The notes below the pieces were generated by a model that was not told the DNA's origin, did not search any database, and worked only from the letters and a program-made list of their open reading frames with translations. A stretch of 64,000 nt of DNA, taken from Acidimicrobiia bacterium. Its GTDB lineage: Bacteria > Actinomycetota > Acidimicrobiia > Spongiisociales > JAHEDJ01. Of this stretch, positions 6,114-45,014 are shown piece by piece. The DNA lies in assembly GCA_035471805.1 (NCBI GenBank), contig DATIPS010000063.1, positions 1-64,000 on the forward strand, in the 5' to 3' direction. Position 1 is the stretch's first letter; the number at the start of each line of letters is the position of its first letter. Both the position numbers and the translations under genes were made by a program.

Positions 6114-7865
6114 TCAGTTGTAACGAGGCACGGGTCCGTCCCAACTCACTCCGGACCACGCTCCGGCGCTCCAGGACACACCGGACCACGACACACCCGA
6201 CCACGACACACCCGACCACGACACACCCGACCACGACACACCCGACCAGGACACACCCGACCAGGACACACCGGACCAGGACACACCGTTCCAGTCACCA
6301 CCGGACCAGGACACACCCATGGCACTCAACTCTGCGTGTGCGTCACCGTCCCAGGCCCGGCCGAAGATGTCCTGCTCGCCGTTGAGCTCGACTCCATCCA
6401 TCGAGATCCGGTAGGAACCCCGCGCTGCGTCGAGCGAGCCGTTGCCCTTGGAAGGAGTGGCGTTCTGATCCGCATCCCAGGGAACCCATTGACGGAGTGC
6501 TCCGGCCACGTCGAGCATGCCTGATCCCTGGCACTTGGAGTCGACTCCCCAGAAGCGGCGCGCCGACTCCATCAGCAGGGATTTGACCTCGTCGGGCTCG
6601 AGATAGGGCTTGGCATCGAGTATCTGCGCAACGGCGCCCGAGACAACCGCAGCGGCCTGAGACGTGCCGCTACCAACGAAGAATCGTTCCTGAACAACGG
6701 CATCCGGATTGTTGACATCGGCATAGGAACCGGGAGTGCGGAGGCTGACGATGGACCGGCCGGGTGCCACGATGTCAACGTGCCGGCTCCTGTCCCCGCA
6801 GTTGCTGAAGGAGGCAACCGAGTTCCCGTCGGCTGCTCCGACCGCGATCACAAACGGGTCGTAGGCAGGGTTGCGGAGGAGTGCCGAGTTTCCGTCATTC
6901 CCGGCCGCCACCACGACAACGATGCCCGCTTTCCACGCCTGCTCAACCGCGTACGCCAGCGGATCGAGGAGGTAGTCCTGAGTGCCGTCGGTACCGAACG
7001 ACAGGTTCAGCACTCTGACGTTCATTCCGTTGTCGTTGCGATGTTGAACCACCCAGTCGATGGCCGCAATGATCTGCGACACGTCGGTCGCTCCGTTGCG
7101 ACCCGCCGTCCTGACCGAGAGAACATCGGCATCGGGAGCCATCCCGGTGAACTCATCGTCGTGGTTGTAGCTGTACCCGTAGGCTCGAGTTGCCCTGTCA
7201 CGGCCGGCGATGATCCCGGCCAGGTGGGTCCCATGTCCGAAGGTGTCAACATACTGCTCACCAGTCTGCGACTCGAATGAGAGATCTGGGCCGTTGATGA
7301 GCCGCCCGTCCGACAGTCCGGCAACCGGAGTGACACCCGAATCGATGATCGCGACAGTCACGTCATCGCCCGTCGCCTGATACCAGGACCATGCATCATC
7401 GGCGCGGGTCTTCTCCGTGACCTCGTACATCGATCCGGGGCCAGTGAGAGCGTCCATCTGCTGGGATGTGCCCTCCCACTGGCGGAAATGGCCCCATAGA
7501 TAATCGACTGAGGAATCGGGTGTGACTTTGGCTACCTCCGGATGCTGGAGCAGAACGGTCGCAGCACTCGCCGGGATGTCGGCGACGAAGGCATCGATGA
7601 TGCCCAGTTCGAGGACAACCACTCCCCCCAGCTCACCGACCAGCAACTCGGGACCGTCGCCGGCGGTTGCAGTCTCCTGCACGATGAAACGCTCAAACTG
7701 TCCAGCGGAGCCGGCTGCATCCTCAACAGCAGACTGCAACAGCGGCAAGTCGGCGGAGGCAGACGTCCCCGGCGCCAGCAAGGCCGCGATCATCGCCACT
7801 ATCAGCACAACGGTCGAATACCAGCGGCGCTTCTCTTCCCATTTGACCGAATACGCTGCGTTCAT
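6114..7865 (-). CDS. Secreted S8 (subtilisin-like) serine peptidase with WSG repeat tail, copy 1
   Basis: This 583-residue exported subtilase starts with a basic N-terminus and a hydrophobic signal segment (about residues 15-40). An inhibitor-I9-like propeptide ends near PEVAKVTPDS. The triad is intact: Asp in AIIDSGV, His in GHGTHLAG and Ser in GTSQAAAVVSG, with the oxyanion Asn in AAGNDGN. After the catalytic domain a GNGSLDAARGS...DIFGR segment leads into about eight consecutive GVSWS pentapeptides and a conserved end, SWDGPVPRYN. The ATG at 7865 has GGGAGG about 8 nt upstream, better than an in-frame ATG 21 nt earlier. Its neighbour is a paralogue sharing domain order and leader. It is probably exported; targets are unknown. 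Confidence 0.93.
   Translation of the reverse strand: MNAAYSVKWEEKRRWYSTVVLIVAMIAALLAPGTSASADLPLLQSAVEDAAGSAGQFERFIVQETATAGDGPELLVGELGGVVVLELGIIDAFVADIPASAATVLLQHPEVAKVTPDSSVDYLWGHFRQWEGTSQQMDALTGPGSMYEVTEKTRADDAWSWYQATGDDVTVAIIDSGVTPVAGLSDGRLINGPDLSFESQTGEQYVDTFGHGTHLAGIIAGRDRATRAYGYSYNHDDEFTGMAPDADVLSVRTAGRNGATDVSQIIAAIDWVVQHRNDNGMNVRVLNLSFGTDGTQDYLLDPLAYAVEQAWKAGIVVVVAAGNDGNSALLRNPAYDPFVIAVGAADGNSVASFSNCGDRSRHVDIVAPGRSIVSLRTPGSYADVNNPDAVVQERFFVGSGTSQAAAVVSGAVAQILDAKPYLEPDEVKSLLMESARRFWGVDSKCQGSGMLDVAGALRQWVPWDADQNATPSKGNGSLDAARGSYRISMDGVELNGEQDIFGRAWDGDAHAELSAMGVSWSGGDWNGVSWSGVSWSGVSWSGVSWSGVSWSGVSWSGVSWSGVSWSAGAWSGVSWDGPVPRYN
6130..6310. repeat. 15-bp tandem repeat coding the GVSWS pentapeptides
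   Basis: Variants of the 15-bp unit GACCACGACACACCC (plus strand) run in tandem through the 3' end of the first S8 peptidase gene, mostly differing at one or two positions. Each unit encodes one GVSWS or closely related pentapeptide, so the array length sets the length of the tail and could vary by slippage. Confidence 0.9.
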
Positions 7866-7956
7866 CTTCAAACCTCCCAGATTCATGAGAGAAATATCGG
7901 GAGACGGTTGAAAAACTCGCGAACCGTTGCCTGTCCACGCGAGATGACTAGTTATC
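7866..7956 (-). promoter_or_regulatory. Conserved 5' leader of S8 peptidase copy 1
   Basis: About 90 bp upstream of the start are nearly identical to the leader of the second S8 gene, and similarity stops abruptly beyond the ACTAGTTAT block at 7947-7955. Shared elements, read toward the gene, are ACTAGT, an inverted repeat CTCGCG...CGCGAG and the GGGAGG ribosome-binding site. It may hold a promoter plus an operator or structured RNA. I do not recognise it as a known riboswitch. Confidence 0.55.
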
Positions 7957-8036: not shown

Positions 8037-9887
8037 TCAGTTGAAGCGGGGTTTGGGTCCGTCCCAGCTGACGCCGGACCAGACTCCTGCACTCCAGGAC
8101 AACCCCGACCAGGACGAGCCCGACCACGAGACACCGGACCAGGAGAGTCCGTTCCAGGTCATGTCGGACCAGGAAAAGCCGGACCAGGAAAGGCCGGACC
8201 AGGAGACACCGGACCACGACACGCCGCTCCATGAGACACCGGACCACGACACGCCGCTCCATGAGACACCGGACCATTCCGACCCGTTCCAGCTACCGCC
8301 GTCCCACGCAGACTCGGACCGGGCGTCCGCGGCATGTTCACTGCTGTCGAACGGCCGGCCGAAGATGTCGATCTCGCCTTCGAGAACCGAGCCGTTGGGA
8401 TCCTGCAGGTGGAACGAACCACGCGCCGCGTCGAGAGATCCGTTTCCCGCCGACCAGGTGTACGGCGCGACCCCGGAGGATTTCCTACGCTGTTTCACGG
8501 CTGCGCCGACATCGATCAGGCCCGCACCCTGGCAGCGGGGATGCGCGCCGGTCAGCTCGACCGCCGTATCCACCAACAGGTTCTTGACTTGAAAGGCATT
8601 GAGATTGGGTTTGGAACTGAGGATGACTGCGGCGGCACCGGAGACAATCGCGGCGGCCTGAGAGGTGCCGGTCCCGCGGAACAGGCGGTCGTTGACCGCG
8701 GCACTCGGGTGCTTGGTGTCGACGTAGGACCCCGGATTCCGCAGACTGACGATCGACACACCCGGCGCAACGACATCCACAGAACGGCCGCTCGTCCCGC
8801 AGTTGGAGAAATCGGGTACAAAGTCGTCGGTACCGTCTGCAGTGCCGTTGGTATTGGCTGCTCCGACCGCGATCACGTAGGGGTCCAGGGCCGGGTTGCG
8901 CAGGGGGTCGACGTTGCCGTCGTTGCCGGCTGCCACGACGACAACGATCCCGTTCCACACAGCCTGCTCTACGGCATGGGCCAACGGGTCGAGCAGGTAA
9001 CTCTGAGTGCTGTCGGTCCCGAACGAGAGGTTGATGACCCGCACGTTCATCCCGTTGTCATCACGATGCTGCACCACCCAGTCGAGCGCGGCGATCACCT
9101 GGGAAACGTCAACGGAACCTTCGTGGTCGGCGACCTTGATACTGAGAATCGATGCCCCGGGGGCAATCCCATAGAAGTCGGACTTGCTGGCAGCCTTCGG
9201 GTTCGATACGCCGGTGTCATTGCCGGCAATGATGCCGGCCATGTGGGTGCCGTGGCCGAACGTATCCAGGTAGCGGAGGCCGGGATCTTGCGACTCGAAT
9301 GAGAGGTCCGGACCATTGATGATCTTGCCTGCACCGGTCAGACCCTGCACGGGAACCACACCCGAATCGATCAGCGCTACCGTAACGCCCTCACCGCCCG
9401 CACCCTGCGACCACGCCGCCTCAGCGCCGACCGCCTCCTTGACGACGTGGTACATCGAGCCGTCCATCGAAGACGCATATTTCATCTCGCCGAAAGTGAC
9501 CGTACCGTCACCGGTCGGTGAGGAATCGGTTGTCGTGCCGCCGTTGTTCTTGCGCGGTTTGCCCATGAGTTGGACGGCGCTGTCGGGGGTGACCGCACTC
9601 ACACCGGGCATCGCCTTCAGAGCAGCCATCGCCGACTGCGGCAACTCGGCGGTGAAACCGTCGATGATCGGAAGGTCGGTGAGGACCGTTCCACCCAGCA
9701 TCTCCACGAACTGCTCAACCGAACCATCGGTACCGATCGTCTTCTCGACAATCACCGTCAGCAGAGGCGAATCGTCCACGGAAGAAGCGACCGGTGCCGG
9801 CAGAGCTGCGATCATCATCACTACCAGCAAAACGGCCGGAAGCCGGCGGAGCTGCTCTTCCCATCTGAACGATTGCGCTGCCTTCAT
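8037..9887 (-). CDS. Secreted S8 (subtilisin-like) serine peptidase with WSG repeat tail, copy 2
   Basis: This 616-residue paralogue of the preceding gene has the same layout. A signal segment (LLVVMMIAALPAP) and an I9-like propeptide come first. The catalytic domain carries Asp in ALIDSGV, His in GHGTHMAG, Ser in GTSQAAAIVSG and Asn in AAGNDGN. The tail has GVSWS/GLSWS-type pentapeptides, more degenerate than in copy 1, and ends SWDGPKPRFN. The frame is open upstream, but the ATG at 9887 follows GGGAGG and matches the start of copy 1. Insertions relative to copy 1 fall in the propeptide and before the active-site Ser. Probably extracellular; substrate unknown. Confidence 0.93.
   Translation of the reverse strand: MKAAQSFRWEEQLRRLPAVLLVVMMIAALPAPVASSVDDSPLLTVIVEKTIGTDGSVEQFVEMLGGTVLTDLPIIDGFTAELPQSAMAALKAMPGVSAVTPDSAVQLMGKPRKNNGGTTTDSSPTGDGTVTFGEMKYASSMDGSMYHVVKEAVGAEAAWSQGAGGEGVTVALIDSGVVPVQGLTGAGKIINGPDLSFESQDPGLRYLDTFGHGTHMAGIIAGNDTGVSNPKAASKSDFYGIAPGASILSIKVADHEGSVDVSQVIAALDWVVQHRDDNGMNVRVINLSFGTDSTQSYLLDPLAHAVEQAVWNGIVVVVAAGNDGNVDPLRNPALDPYVIAVGAANTNGTADGTDDFVPDFSNCGTSGRSVDVVAPGVSIVSLRNPGSYVDTKHPSAAVNDRLFRGTGTSQAAAIVSGAAAVILSSKPNLNAFQVKNLLVDTAVELTGAHPRCQGAGLIDVGAAVKQRRKSSGVAPYTWSAGNGSLDAARGSFHLQDPNGSVLEGEIDIFGRPFDSSEHAADARSESAWDGGSWNGSEWSGVSWSGVSWSGVSWSGVSWSGVSWSGLSWSGFSWSDMTWNGLSWSGVSWSGSSWSGLSWSAGVWSGVSWDGPKPRFN
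8060..8310. repeat. Degenerate 15-bp tandem repeats in S8 peptidase copy 2
   Basis: The 3' end of the gene carries 15-bp periodic repeats coding WSG-type pentapeptides. Two 30-bp blocks (GACACGCCGCTCCATGAGAC type) near 8218-8270 are repeated exactly, evidence of recent duplication within the array. Confidence 0.85.
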
Positions 9888-9978
9888 ACTCCAACCTCCC
9901 AGCTCCATGAGAGGGATATCGGGAAACAGGTCGAAAACTCGCGAACGATTGCCGATGCACGCGAGATAACTAGTTATG
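9888..9978 (-). promoter_or_regulatory. Conserved 5' leader of S8 peptidase copy 2
   Basis: This is the counterpart of the leader at 7866-7956. It carries the perfect 12-bp palindrome ATAACTAGTTAT at 9966-9977, then CTCGCG...CGCGAG with a 16-nt loop, then GGGAGG. The palindrome sits about where a promoter or operator would be expected. Outside this block the two upstream regions are unrelated, which argues for selection rather than simple recent duplication of the whole region. Confidence 0.55.
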
Positions 9979-10135
9979 AATCGGTTGCGGGTTCCGGGGG
10001 CGATGAGCAGGGGTCGCACCGGACAAGGCCTCGGAGATTCAACTCATTCAGCAGCCGGGCAACAGGCCGCCGGTCGATAGGCGAACGACACAGCGCGGCA
10101 TCCCTGATGCTTTCTCGCCTATCCTCCCATCAACT

Positions 10136-40350: not shown

Positions 40351-40872
40351 TCAGAAGTCGAACGGAACCATTTCCCCGTTCTTCTGGATCAACACCACCG
40401 GTTGCGACTCCCAGGTGTCGACATCTCCACCCATGCCGGGTGAATCCGCCGGCATGCCGGGCAGAGCCAGACCTATGGCATCCGGGCGTTCGTCGAGGAG
40501 CTGAAGAATCGCCCCGGCCGGAACGTGTCCCTCGATCACGTACCCATCCAGCAGCGCCGTGTGGCACGATGCGGCACCGGCGGGGACCCCGTGTTCCGAT
40601 TTGAATTCGGCCAACTGTGGATCCTCGGTCAGATCGATGCTGGCTCCCAGTTCTTGCAGGTACCCGACCCACCCAGTGCAGCATCCTCAGCCGGGTTCCT
40701 GATGCACATCCAGACTGAGACCGGACAGTGACAACTCCGTTGCTGTTGCCACAGGGTTCGTCGGCTGAGGTGCCGCGGTTGTCGTGGTGACCGTTGAAGC
40801 GCCGCCGCACGCGGTCGCTCCAAGCACCAGTAACAAAAGCCATATACGGGAACGCAACTCTCGACCTTTCAT
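40351..40872 (-). CDS. DUF411 metal-binding lipoprotein with in-frame TGA: candidate selenoprotein
   Basis: Read through one TGA (40687-40689), the frame encodes 173 residues. It has a lipoprotein signal with GATAC (C22), a Thr/Pro linker and a complete DUF411 domain. DUF411/CopG proteins share a P-x-CGCC-x-x-W motif; here it reads EPG-TGA-GCCTGW, so the stop (codon 62) sits exactly on the first Cys. Downstream homology is uninterrupted: SCHTAL with C103, YVIEGHVPAG, DAIGLALPGMP and a Met-rich SPGM. Other genes in the window end normally at TGA. Selenocysteine insertion is the best reading; a nonsense mutation is the alternative. DUF411 proteins are associated with copper handling. It is divergent from the second TGA-containing gene. 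Confidence 0.8.
40655..40680 (-). promoter_or_regulatory. Candidate SECIS hairpin of the DUF411 gene
   Basis: Read on the minus strand, TGCA starts 6 nt after the TGA and pairs with a second TGCA at the far end. An upper GGT/ACC stem with a G-T closing pair presents a GGTCGGG apical loop about 17 nt from the TGA, with a CTG bulge on one side. Distance and G-rich loop fit bacterial SECIS rules, but the stem is less regular than in the other gene. Confidence 0.5.
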
Positions 40873-41160: not shown

Positions 41161-41649
41161 GTGACCAGGCAAGATCGTTCGACCCGTGGGTACCGCACAC
41201 CGAACGCGGCGCGGACCGTCGCCGCGGTAGCGGGTTTGCTGCTCGTCCTGTTGCTGGTTACTTCGAGATGGGGTGACAGTCCCGAACCGGTCGGGGTGGC
41301 TCTCGACACAATCGGCACACCGATCCTCCAACTCGACCGCGACTTCGTAGATTTCGGAGATGTTCAGTTCAATCAGATGGTCGAGGCGACGTTCGAGGTG
41401 ACCAACACGGGAGATGCCACTCTCCTGTTCACTGAGGAGCCGTTCATCGAACTCGAGGACGGGTGTTGACCGCCTACACCGACCATCGGTTCGATGGTCC
41501 TCAACCCCGGAGAATCAACAATTGTGGCGGTGACCTTCACGATGCACGCCGGAATGGACGGCTTCCACGACTTCCGGTTGCACCTGGCCACAAACGACCC
41601 GGAGAATCCGGCTCGGGAGATCGTGATCCTCTCGAACTGGGTCCAATAG
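41161..41649 (+). CDS. DUF1573-like exported protein with in-frame TGA: candidate selenoprotein
   Basis: Read through the TGA at 41467-41469, the gene encodes 162 residues. An N-terminal membrane anchor (about 17-34) precedes one DUF1573/Hydin-like beta-sandwich (VDFGDVQFNQMVEATFEVTN). The stop falls in EDGC-TGA-PPTPTIGSM, where relatives I recall have GCCPP, so codon 103 replaces the second Cys of a vicinal pair. Homology continues to the TAG at 41649 (LNPGESTIVAVTF, then GFHDFRLHLATNDPE). A perfect 7-bp hairpin follows at SECIS distance. The GTG start has GGGAGG upstream. It heads the redox operon running to 45014; a selenenylsulfide-forming thiol oxidoreductase or metal relay is likely. 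Confidence 0.85.
41481..41499 (+). promoter_or_regulatory. Candidate SECIS hairpin of the DUF1573-like gene
   Basis: GACCATC and GATGGTC form a perfect 7-bp stem closed by the loop GGTTC. The loop starts 19 nt after the TGA. Bacterial SECIS elements have a short apical loop with G in the first two positions, roughly 16-37 nt after the UGA, so this fits closely. Confidence 0.75.
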
Positions 41650-41720: not shown

Positions 41721-42176
41721 GTGAGGATTCCGAAAACTGCGCTTCTGATGGCCTTCATAATCATCGCCGGCGGACTCACCGTTTCGGCGTGCGGCACCGG
41801 AGGTGAGAGCCACGGGATGGATCTCGCCGACCCGTCGGTGCTTCCCGACTTCGTACTGACGGCGCCGGACTCCGTCCAGGAGGCGTACCTGTTTGCGGTC
41901 GCCCACCCGGAAGATCTGTCGCATCAGCCCTGTTACTGCGGCTGCGGCACGATGGGCCACGAAAGCAACCTGGGCTGCTTCATATCCGATATGGCCGAAG
42001 GCGGCCCCATCACGTTTGACTCTCATGCGATCGGGTGCGGTATTTGCGTCGACATCGCCCAGGACACCATGCGCATGACGGCCGACGGCAAGTCGCCCCT
42101 GGAGATACGGGAGTTCATCGACGGCCGCTACGGCAGGTTCGGACCTCCGACTCCGACGCCGATGCCCCCGAGTTGA
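41721..42176 (+). CDS. PCYCGC-motif lipoprotein
   Basis: This 151-residue lipoprotein (VSAC, C24) carries the PCYCGC motif at 70-75, followed by H80, SNLGCF (C86) and HAIGCGICVDIAQD (C106, C109). This matches the PCYCGC domain family, exported proteins of unknown function whose clustered Cys/His suggest binding of a metal or cofactor. A Pro/Thr-rich tail ends the protein. It lies 71 bp after the DUF1573-like candidate selenoprotein and 8 bp before the CuA gene, so it belongs to the same operon. All its Cys codons are normal. Confidence 0.88.
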   Translation: MRIPKTALLMAFIIIAGGLTVSACGTGGESHGMDLADPSVLPDFVLTAPDSVQEAYLFAVAHPEDLSHQPCYCGCGTMGHESNLGCFISDMAEGGPITFDSHAIGCGICVDIAQDTMRMTADGKSPLEIREFIDGRYGRFGPPTPTPMPPS

Positions 42177-42184
42177 GATTACGC

Positions 42185-42646
42185 ATGATGAGATGGCGCA
42201 CGATTGTCACGGCTCGCCGCAGCGTGCTGCTGCTGGCGATACTGGCGGTGCTGCTCGTGCCGTTTCCCGCGTTCGGCGAACCGGAGGTCCATCACCTGAC
42301 GATCGACGCCTCACAGTTCGAGTACTCGCCGGCGAGGCTGACCGTTAATCGCGGCGACACGGTACACGTGGAACTCAAAGCCTCCGACGTCGTCCACGGA
42401 CTGTATCTGGACGGCTACGACATCGAGGCTCGGGTCGCACCCGGAGCATCGGAGGAGTTCTCGTTCTTGGCCGACCAGAGCGGCAAGTTCCGGTACCGGT
42501 GTTCGGTAGCCTGCGGACCTTTGCACCCCTTCATGATCGGTGAACTGGTGGTGGGGCCGAACGACCTCCTGTGGCGGTCCGGTGCCCTGGCCCTCCTCGC
42601 GGTGGCGGCCTTGCTCTCCGGCACTCGCGAACGGTGGGCGACATGA
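42185..42646 (+). CDS. CuA-type cupredoxin protein (cytochrome oxidase subunit II-like)
   Basis: This 153-residue exported protein has a signal peptide (residues 12-31, cleavage near AFG). One cupredoxin domain with a binuclear copper site follows: H71 (VVHGLY), then C106-x3-C110-x3-H114-x2-M117 in CSVACGPLHPFM. A C-terminal transmembrane helix (SGALALLAVAALLSG) anchors it. Unlike real oxidase subunit II it has no N-terminal helical hairpin, and no subunit I is nearby. It probably relays electrons between the cytochrome c fusion protein and the membrane polyferredoxin. Its stop overlaps the next start (ATGA). Confidence 0.88.
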   Translation: MMRWRTIVTARRSVLLLAILAVLLVPFPAFGEPEVHHLTIDASQFEYSPARLTVNRGDTVHVELKASDVVHGLYLDGYDIEARVAPGASEEFSFLADQSGKFRYRCSVACGPLHPFMIGELVVGPNDLLWRSGALALLAVAALLSGTRERWAT

Positions 42647-44049
42647 AGGTCGTCGTGCGGGAGCCGGCTTCATCCGGGCGAAGAATCGACCTGCTCGAGT
42701 CGGCTCCGCGACTCAGACGCATTGTGCTCTCCCGCGGGTTTCAGCCGATCCTGATGCTCGTGATGCTGGCGCCGTTCGTCCTGGCGATCGTTGCAGGTCT
42801 GGTCGGAACGTCGGCGGGAAACCGCAACTTCGGAATCGTGTTCGTTTGGATCGTCTGGTGGGCGCTGCTGATGGTGTTCCTGGTACCGGGTCTTGGACGG
42901 GCCTGGTGCACGGTGTGCCCCATACCTGCGCCCGGCGAATGGGTCCAACGGCGCGGCATCGTCGGCGGTTCGAACCGGCTGCGAACGATGGGGCTGCGAT
43001 GGCCGCGCCGGCTGAGGAACATGTGGACCCAGAACACGGGGTTCCTGTTGCTCGCCTTGTTCTCGACGGTGATCCTGACCAGGCCCTCGATATCCGCCGG
43101 GGTGATCCTCGGAATGGCCGGAGTAGCCCTCGGCATGAGCCTGCTCTTCGAGAAACGGGTGTTCTGCAGATATGTGTGCCCGATCGGCGGCTTCATCGGC
43201 CTCTACTCGATGACGGCACCGGTTGAGCTGCGAGTCCGCGACCGGCAGGTATGTGTCGATCATCGCACGAAGGACTGCATCACGGGCAACGAACGCGGCT
43301 ACGGCTGCCCGTGGATGGTCTACCCCGGCAAACTCGACCGTAATCTCGATTGTGGGTTGTGCACCGAATGTCTGAAGACGTGCACGATGGACAACGTGGT
43401 GGTCAACCTGCGCCGGCCGGGAGCGGACCTCGGCCGGCCGGTTCGCAGCAAGAAGGTCGACGAGGCGTTCAAAGCCTTGATCATGCTGGCGTGCTCGATC
43501 ATCTACCCGGCGGTGCTGTTCGGACCTTGGTCGACGATCAAAGAGTGGGCTGCCTTCGAATCGTTCGTTGGCTGGGCGCTCTACGCAGCCGGGTTTCTCG
43601 CAGCCACTCTGCTGGTGGTCCCTGGACTCTTCTGGCTCGCCGCCGCCGCCGCAGCTCGACGGTCATGCGGCGGACTCTCCGTGCGGCAGACGTTCAACGA
43701 ATACGCCCACGCGCTGATCCCTATCGGCCTGGCCGCCTGGATCGCCTTCTCCGTCGGTTTCGCCCTGACCAACGGCAGCTATGCACTGGCGGCAGTCTCA
43801 GACCCCTTGGGTTGGGGCTGGAACTTGTTCGGCACACGCGACGCAGGATGGACCCCCTTCCTCTCAGGGACCGCGCCCGGCATACAGGCAGCCATCATTC
43901 TCAGCGGGCTCGTTTTCAGCCTCCGCACGGGTCTCCGTATAGGGTTCCGTCACGATCCCTCAGGCGCAACGGCTGTGCGGGCAACGGCACCGGTGGCCAT
44001 GTTTCTGCTGGTCTGCACGATGGCGCTGCTCTGGCTGTACCTCGGATGA
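42643..44049 (+). CDS. Polytopic membrane polyferredoxin (NapH/NosR/CcoG-like)
   Basis: This 468-residue protein has many transmembrane helices on both sides of a cytoplasmic ferredoxin part. Membrane-proximal Cys pairs CTVCP (C89, C92) and CRYVCP (C175, C179) are typical of the NapH/NosR/CcoG family. C204, C212 and C222 precede a [4Fe-4S] motif C237-x2-C240-x2-C243-x3-C247. Such proteins move electrons across the membrane or assist copper-enzyme assembly. Start and stop overlap both neighbours (ATGA), so expression is coupled to the CuA and cytochrome genes. No NosZ, NapA or oxidase catalytic gene is present in the window. Confidence 0.88.
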   Translation: MKVVVREPASSGRRIDLLESAPRLRRIVLSRGFQPILMLVMLAPFVLAIVAGLVGTSAGNRNFGIVFVWIVWWALLMVFLVPGLGRAWCTVCPIPAPGEWVQRRGIVGGSNRLRTMGLRWPRRLRNMWTQNTGFLLLALFSTVILTRPSISAGVILGMAGVALGMSLLFEKRVFCRYVCPIGGFIGLYSMTAPVELRVRDRQVCVDHRTKDCITGNERGYGCPWMVYPGKLDRNLDCGLCTECLKTCTMDNVVVNLRRPGADLGRPVRSKKVDEAFKALIMLACSIIYPAVLFGPWSTIKEWAAFESFVGWALYAAGFLAATLLVVPGLFWLAAAAAARRSCGGLSVRQTFNEYAHALIPIGLAAWIAFSVGFALTNGSYALAAVSDPLGWGWNLFGTRDAGWTPFLSGTAPGIQAAIILSGLVFSLRTGLRIGFRHDPSGATAVRATAPVAMFLLVCTMALLWLYLG

Positions 44050-45014
44050 ACCGAACCGCCGGCAACCGTTCCGGCCTCCTGGCGGTGCTGTTGATCGTCG
44101 TCGGCATCCCCGTTGCCGTGCTCGGATACCAGTACGGTCTCCGTCCGATGCTGTCCGAGCACCGGATCATCGACGTCGAAGCCCGCACTCCCGAAGACGG
44201 GGGATTCTCACCGGACACCATCAGGGTCGACGTCGGCGAGACGGTCACCCTCCGGTTCTCCGCCGAGGACGTGACTCACGGTATTGCCATCGGCCCCGGC
44301 CTCGGGATCGACCTCGGGCAGATCGACCCCGGCCACACCGAGAATGTCACCGTAACCTTCGACTCCCCCGGCATCTACACGTACTACTGCAACACCTGGT
44401 GCAGTGCCGATCACTGGAGGATGCGAGGAATCATCGAAGTCGTCGCCGCAGGGTCGGCGACCGCGGATGATCCACCCGACCCCATCATCGACGCGCTCGC
44501 TGCTGCGTCCATCGACATCGATGCCGAACCCCAGACGACGACCGGCATCTCGCCCGATGTGAGCCGGGCCGGGATGAGCATCGAGTCGGTAGTGATTCCG
44601 CCCGAACTCGAAGATCCCGACTGGCTTCTGCAACACTCGCCGGCCGAGGGAGCCGACATCCTCGGCACCGCCAACCCCGATCTCTCCGCTGATCTCCTGA
44701 TCGACGTTGTCGCCTACCTCTGGACTCCTGCCGAACCGGACTCTGCGACCGCCGGCCTGTACACCAAGAACTGCGCCGCCTGCCACGGCGAATCCGGGGA
44801 AGGCGACGGGCCGGCCGCCGAAACGACAATCGAGCGACCTGCCGCGTTCAGCGACGTAGCCTGGCTGCGACGGGGCGACATCTGGTACGCCAAGATCCGG
44901 CGCGGGGGCATGGGGACAGACATGCCGAATTTCGGCACGCTGTTCACTGCGGAGGAAACGCTGGAACTCGTCGGATACCTCTGGTACCTGGCTTTCGACT
45001 CTCCACCCGAGTAG
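44046..45014 (+). CDS. CuA-type cupredoxin fused to cytochrome c
   Basis: This 322-residue exported protein has an N-terminal anchor (10-30) and a cupredoxin domain with H78 and C115-x3-C119-x3-H123-x2-M126 (CNTWCSADHWRM), a binuclear CuA pattern close to those of NosZ and oxidases. A linker of about 100 residues (Asp/Pro-rich) follows, then a class I cytochrome c with CAACH (243-247) and a distal Met in MGTDMPNF. It should shuttle electrons at the outer face of the membrane. It is the last gene of the operon, followed 128 bp later by a terminator. The final acceptor is unknown. Confidence 0.88.
   Translation: MNRTAGNRSGLLAVLLIVVGIPVAVLGYQYGLRPMLSEHRIIDVEARTPEDGGFSPDTIRVDVGETVTLRFSAEDVTHGIAIGPGLGIDLGQIDPGHTENVTVTFDSPGIYTYYCNTWCSADHWRMRGIIEVVAAGSATADDPPDPIIDALAAASIDIDAEPQTTTGISPDVSRAGMSIESVVIPPELEDPDWLLQHSPAEGADILGTANPDLSADLLIDVVAYLWTPAEPDSATAGLYTKNCAACHGESGEGDGPAAETTIERPAAFSDVAWLRRGDIWYAKIRRGGMGTDMPNFGTLFTAEETLELVGYLWYLAFDSPPE

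Follow-up and report, generated by a model that had tools for sequence, protein, structure and literature searches.

A predicted DUF1573 selenoprotein with a vicinal Cys-Sec pair, encoded beside a likely DUF411 selenoprotein in Acidimicrobiia

Known selenoproteins related to the locus

Sec-containing DUF1573 proteins have already been catalogued as OS_HP2 (NF041425), from an Olavius algarvensis symbiont, with the motif UGC (PMC13188914; PMC9312934). OS_HP2 and the protein described here are both bacterial, share the PF07610 domain and have a single Sec near a conserved Cys motif. The motif UGC of OS_HP2 is however replaced by GC-U, which places the Sec one residue further to the C-terminus, a shift that rests on the printed OS_HP2 motif and the present alignment. 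The protein studied here scored 17.2 bits and a second locus (L029) 43 bits against NF041425, of which the cut-off is 100 bits. According to the reviewed convention, different Sec positions in one domain denote distinct subfamilies. Since this convention separates subfamilies by Sec position, the C-U protein represents a new Sec-position subfamily of DUF1573, within a family already known.

Adjacent Cys and Sec residues are also found in the vicinal ('CU') selenoproteins MbdU, SaoC and KCU-star, several of which have been tied to metal handling. These proteins sit under other domains, however, and the Ig-like DUF1573 is not among the listed CU domains (PMC13188914). Two further families are represented by neighbours of the gene. 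Sec-containing members of the PCYCGC family (PF13798), the CYCXC / PCYCGC selenoproteins (NF041379), are known elsewhere (PMC13188914); the neighbour belongs to the same Pfam family but, unlike these selenoproteins, has Cys only and scores below the NF041379 cut-off. DUF411 (PF04214) comprises metal-associated proteins, among which PA4714 of Pseudomonas responds to copper (PMC6444534). The second neighbour is a clear member of this family, but a predicted Sec replaces the first Cys of its CGCC motif.

The Sec-DUF1573 gene and its in-frame UGA

The window is the whole stretch of 64,000 nucleotides that was analysed, and it harbours the following features:

41161-41649, plus strand: Sec-DUF1573-type gene with GTG start and TAG stop (41647-41649), 162 amino acids, Sec103
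41467-41469, plus strand: in-frame TGA (UGA), codon 103, predicted selenocysteine in D-G-C-U-P-P
41481-41499, plus strand: bacterial SECIS hairpin with 5' arm 41481-41487, loop GGTTC 41488-41492 and 3' arm 41493-41499

The TGA at 41467-41469 is the single interruption of the frame that starts at GTG 41161, and read-through translation places Sec103 in ELEDGCUPPTPTIGS. The PF07610 (DUF1573) match spans the TGA (residues 57-134, E 4.6e-8, 33.4 bits against a gathering threshold of 26.1), as does a match to the related Ig-like family PF22544. An earlier note on this DNA had described a frame continuing from the TGA to a TAG in clearly homologous sequence, and both statements were borne out apart from differences in counting. 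To our knowledge, DUF1573 has no known biochemical function.

The protein consists of an N-terminal hydrophobic helix (~16-34) followed by an Ig-like domain (~50-162). An AlphaFold2 model, built from 5 aligned sequences, showed helix 16-34 and an Ig-like beta sandwich with a mean pLDDT of 73 (mostly 86-93 in the domain); within the domain, the model is least certain in the loop with the Cys-Sec pair (~99-110). Foldseek matches were to ASH/PapD-like Ig domains. Matches to PDB sequences and folds yielded Ig/ASH/PapD-like domains only and were uninformative on function. The thioredoxin fold is typical of selenoproteins, and the Ig-like fold found here differs from it.

Homologues and the residue at codon 103

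Homologues from the same order were found in 5 further genomes, the named records of which are Acidimicrobiia metagenome-assembled genomes, with 61-71% identity and TGA at the same codon in 5/5. Another family of the phylum (f39) contributed 12 loci in 11 genomes, ~30-38% identical, in all of which (12/12) this codon is again TGA and is preceded by EGC. TGA thus occupies codon 103 in all 17 subtype homologues found, and in 18/18 members when the window gene is included. Distant actinobacterial relatives (L031 and L032) carry Cys at the TGA column in a GCCPG motif, and the fragments L033 and L039 read C-C-P there. In the homologue search, which had been set beforehand as a refuting test, no homologue lacked both Sec and Cys at this position. 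Searches of viral contigs and plasmids yielded no relatives.

The earlier note had placed the TGA where homologues have the second Cys of a vicinal pair. This reading was supported, with the refinement that Sec103 does not fall on a Cys of the canonical C-G-C motif of DUF1573. This motif is absent from the present subtype, which has D/E-G-C-U. When aligned by hhalign to a canonical CGC-type DUF1573 (L108), Cys102 matches the first Cys of that motif, Sec103 its Gly and Pro104 its second Cys, and a MAFFT alignment agrees. L108 was the one higher-scoring locus in an NF041425 search of the phylum. It was rejected as a Sec-DUF1573, having a plain CGC and a TGA outside the motif (the residue before DFG), and was kept only as canonical alignment reference; L113 and L115, without a CGC motif, were left unused. 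Codon 103 is assigned to Sec because every Sec/Cys comparison points there.

The TGA could be a true stop codon or have arisen by nonsense mutation, leaving a truncated protein of 102 amino acids or a pseudogene. TGA is indeed a common stop in the window, where it ends 26 of the 37 plausible genes, as had been noted earlier. Against such a reading, the TGA is retained in 17 homologues down to ~30% identity, the DUF1573 match crosses it, and the hairpin behind it covaries (see below). Purifying selection also acts downstream of the TGA, where pN/pS in six Acidimicrobiia sequences was 0.23, and is the same as upstream of it (0.20). A stop or nonsense mutation is therefore considered very improbable. 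Translation reinitiation after the TGA was set aside, as the conserved domain runs through the TGA without a change of frame.

The SECIS hairpin

The hairpin GACCATC-GGTTC-GATGGTC has a stem of 7 bp, or 8 when the loop-closing G-C is included. Counting from the first nucleotide behind the TGA, the stem begins at position 12 and the loop at position 19, with 18 nt between TGA and loop. These are, but for the way of counting, the distances given in the earlier note, and they fit the published model of bacterial SECIS elements. That model demands a loop of 3-9 nt, a stem of 4-16 bp, a G as first or second base of the loop, a spacing of 16-37 nt and an MFE <= -7.5 (PMC13188914); the hairpin agrees with it on all points, with an MFE of -14.3 for the first 50 nt. 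The two strands of the window together hold 1780 TGAs, and only 0.45% of these are followed by a perfect stem of at least 8 bp with SECIS-like spacing and a loop G.

Covariation was analyzed in 18 DNA segments, which align without gaps from the TGA onwards. The stem register is identical in all 18, nucleotides 15-21 pairing with 27-33 as counted from the T of TGA, and 96.8% of cells are paired. Compensatory double changes occur at 5 of the 7 pairs. The covariation score is 0.579, compared to 0.237 +/- 0.033 for shuffled alignments, and does not exceed 0.260 when the partners are slid. RNAalifold independently recovers the same helix. The proposal that the hairpin arms should covary among relatives is thus strongly supported. 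Stem changes are found not just between the two lineages but also within them (L022, L045, L046, L060); in L022 a change from A-U to G-C retains the pair and replaces two residues of the protein, T by A and V by A. Sixteen of the 18 segments have the loop GGTTC, the others the variants GGTGC and AGTTC. The hairpin lies across codons 4-10 after the TGA. None of these codons varies in a purely synonymous way, as most of the others do.

In its own genome a covariance model of the element scored this site at 56.1 bits and the next at 16.2, a measure of specificity and not an independent discovery, as the site belonged to the training set. No other strong sites for the model were found in this genome, which is expected of a gene-specific element and does not amount to a list of other selenoproteins. 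An Rfam scan of the window returned tRNA only. Bacterial SECIS elements are gene-specific and matches in Rfam are not expected.

The neighbouring DUF411 gene

A second gene of this kind, announced in the earlier note, was indeed found alongside:

40351-40872, minus strand: divergent gene for a second, likely selenoprotein, DUF411 (PF04214), PG-U-GCC, with internal TGA 40687-40689 and a terminal TGA stop
40656-40672, minus strand: SECIS-like hairpin of the DUF411 gene, GUGGGU-CGGGU-ACCUGC, with an invariant core and little covariation

Its lipoprotein-like product matches PF04214 with E 1.3e-24 and has the internal TGA in EPG-U-GCC. TGA has both meanings within this one gene, as internal codon and as stop. 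About 20 DUF411 relatives in the order have the TGA, and one (L071, genome G057) has TGT, coding for Cys. The 6-bp hairpin GUGGGU-CGGGU-ACCURC is in register and paired in 16/16 sequences (100% of cells) and is nearly invariant. In another genome (G088) Sec-DUF1573 and a DUF411 TGA frame lie ~3.3 kb apart on one contig. The table of the 2026 selenoprotein catalogue has no DUF411 entry, and none of the papers searched links DUF411 or COG3019 with selenoproteins. The neighbouring DUF411 protein is therefore likely a selenoprotein family new to the catalogue.

Further DUF411 copies were observed. The host genome harbours a second C-terminal copy (G000:C19:58718-58942), 84% identical over residues 100-174, the matched part being without TGA. 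Two Sec-DUF411 copies lie close together on one contig of another genome (G019:C57:5761-6276 and 8307-8789).

Selenocysteine machinery

The earlier note had made the presence of sel genes in the genome a point to be checked. The host assembly (2.85 Mb, 97% complete) contains them all: selB, above its curated cut-off, lies directly behind selA on contig C49, and contig C31 carries tRNA-Sec with anticodon TCA (Rfam and ARAGORN) and selD (L093; 401 bits). This selD has one in-frame TGA, and SelD of the host genome is likely itself a selenoprotein. Of ten other genomes searched, nine likewise have an in-frame TGA in selD. Among the 138 genomes of the order, 113 have SelB. Neither SelB nor tRNA-Sec was found over threshold in the Acidimicrobiia carriers G053 (77% complete) and G006 (68% complete), nor tRNA-Sec in the f39 carriers G589 and G553; these gaps may reflect incomplete assemblies.

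An intact downstream frame would likewise be seen if a variant genetic code or leaky suppression placed Trp or some other standard amino acid at the UGA, with no selenium involved. TGA is however an ordinary stop elsewhere, including the end of the neighbouring DUF411 gene, and relatives of the Sec-DUF1573 protein carry Cys and not Trp at the column. The TGA to TGT pair that the DUF411 gene shows in L071, the covarying SECIS element and the full Sec machinery also argue against this reading, which we regard as highly improbable. The gene very probably encodes a bacterial selenoprotein with UGA103 read as selenocysteine, a prediction from sequence made because of the conserved UGA, the Sec/Cys replacement, the covarying SECIS element in fixed register, the purifying selection after the UGA and the complete Sec machinery.

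Gene neighbourhood and proposed function

Downstream of the Sec-DUF1573 gene the window contains:

41721-42176, plus strand: PCYCGC-motif protein (PF13798), all Cys
42185-42646, plus strand: cupredoxin / COX2-like protein with a CxxxCxxxHxxM CuA-type motif
42643-44049, plus strand: membrane 4Fe-4S protein (Fer4_5; NapH/NosR-like)
44040-45014, plus strand: cupredoxin (CxxxCxxxHxxM) fused to cytochrome c

In Acidimicrobiia, genes for the PCYCGC protein, the CuA-type cupredoxin and the Fer4_5 4Fe-4S protein lie downstream of the Sec-DUF1573 gene, in the window together with that for the cupredoxin-cytochrome c fusion. In f39 the Sec-DUF1573 gene precedes Fer4_5 and PCYCGC genes, so that both genes occur in both lineages. 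At one locus (L103) a response regulator and a histidine kinase are encoded upstream. The two cupredoxin genes of the window flank that of the NapH/NosR-like 4Fe-4S protein; no nosZ or oxidase gene was noted beside them. Elsewhere in the window, tandem ORFs for subtilisin-like proteases (6114-7886 and 8037-10019, both minus strand) have long C-terminal WSGVSW repeats.

In the proposed mechanism, SelB carrying Sec-tRNA-Sec would bind the hairpin just 3' of UGA103 and insert selenocysteine, to yield a 162-residue protein with an N-terminal helix anchor that would face outward. A loop of the Ig-like DUF1573 domain would display the vicinal pair of Cys and Sec (GC-U). This pair may serve the CuA-type cupredoxins and electron-transfer proteins encoded next to it, either by selenol/thiol redox chemistry or by handling Cu(I), and may do so in concert with the PCYCGC protein and with the Sec-DUF411 protein of the neighbouring gene. 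We infer that the Cys-Sec pair acts as a copper or thiol-redox chaperone, the copper role resting on the gene neighbourhood.

Alternatively, the protein may be a selenoprotein of which the Cys-Sec pair serves general thiol-disulfide or peroxide redox reactions unrelated to copper. A redox function is assumed for most selenoproteins that have not been characterised (PMC13188914), and 4Fe-4S and cytochrome c electron carriers are among the neighbours. Its fold is however Ig/ASH-like and not thioredoxin-like, and the conserved neighbours are cupredoxins, with DUF411 being copper-responsive in Pseudomonas (PMC6444534). A role apart from copper is a serious possibility, to which somewhat less than an even chance is given. 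More speculatively, the locus could encode a selenium-dependent module for the assembly of copper sites. Two outward-facing selenoproteins, the Ig-fold Cys-Sec DUF1573 and the U-GCC DUF411 protein, would then load the CuA-type cupredoxins with Cu(I) by way of selenolate ligands or selenol redox chemistry, the cupredoxins being part of a 4Fe-4S/cytochrome c electron-transfer chain that is uncharacterised. This full model is tentative, and we consider it rather unlikely as a whole.

Implications

With the predicted protein, the Sec-DUF1573 family gains a new Sec position, on a non-thioredoxin (Ig-like) scaffold and with unusually strong SECIS covariation. Beside it is placed a likely selenoprotein of the DUF411 family, which is missing from the current catalogue. 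Standard annotation would cut both proteins short at the UGA. The adjoining copper and electron-transfer genes suggest a use of selenium in periplasmic-type metal handling in these little-studied actinobacteria.
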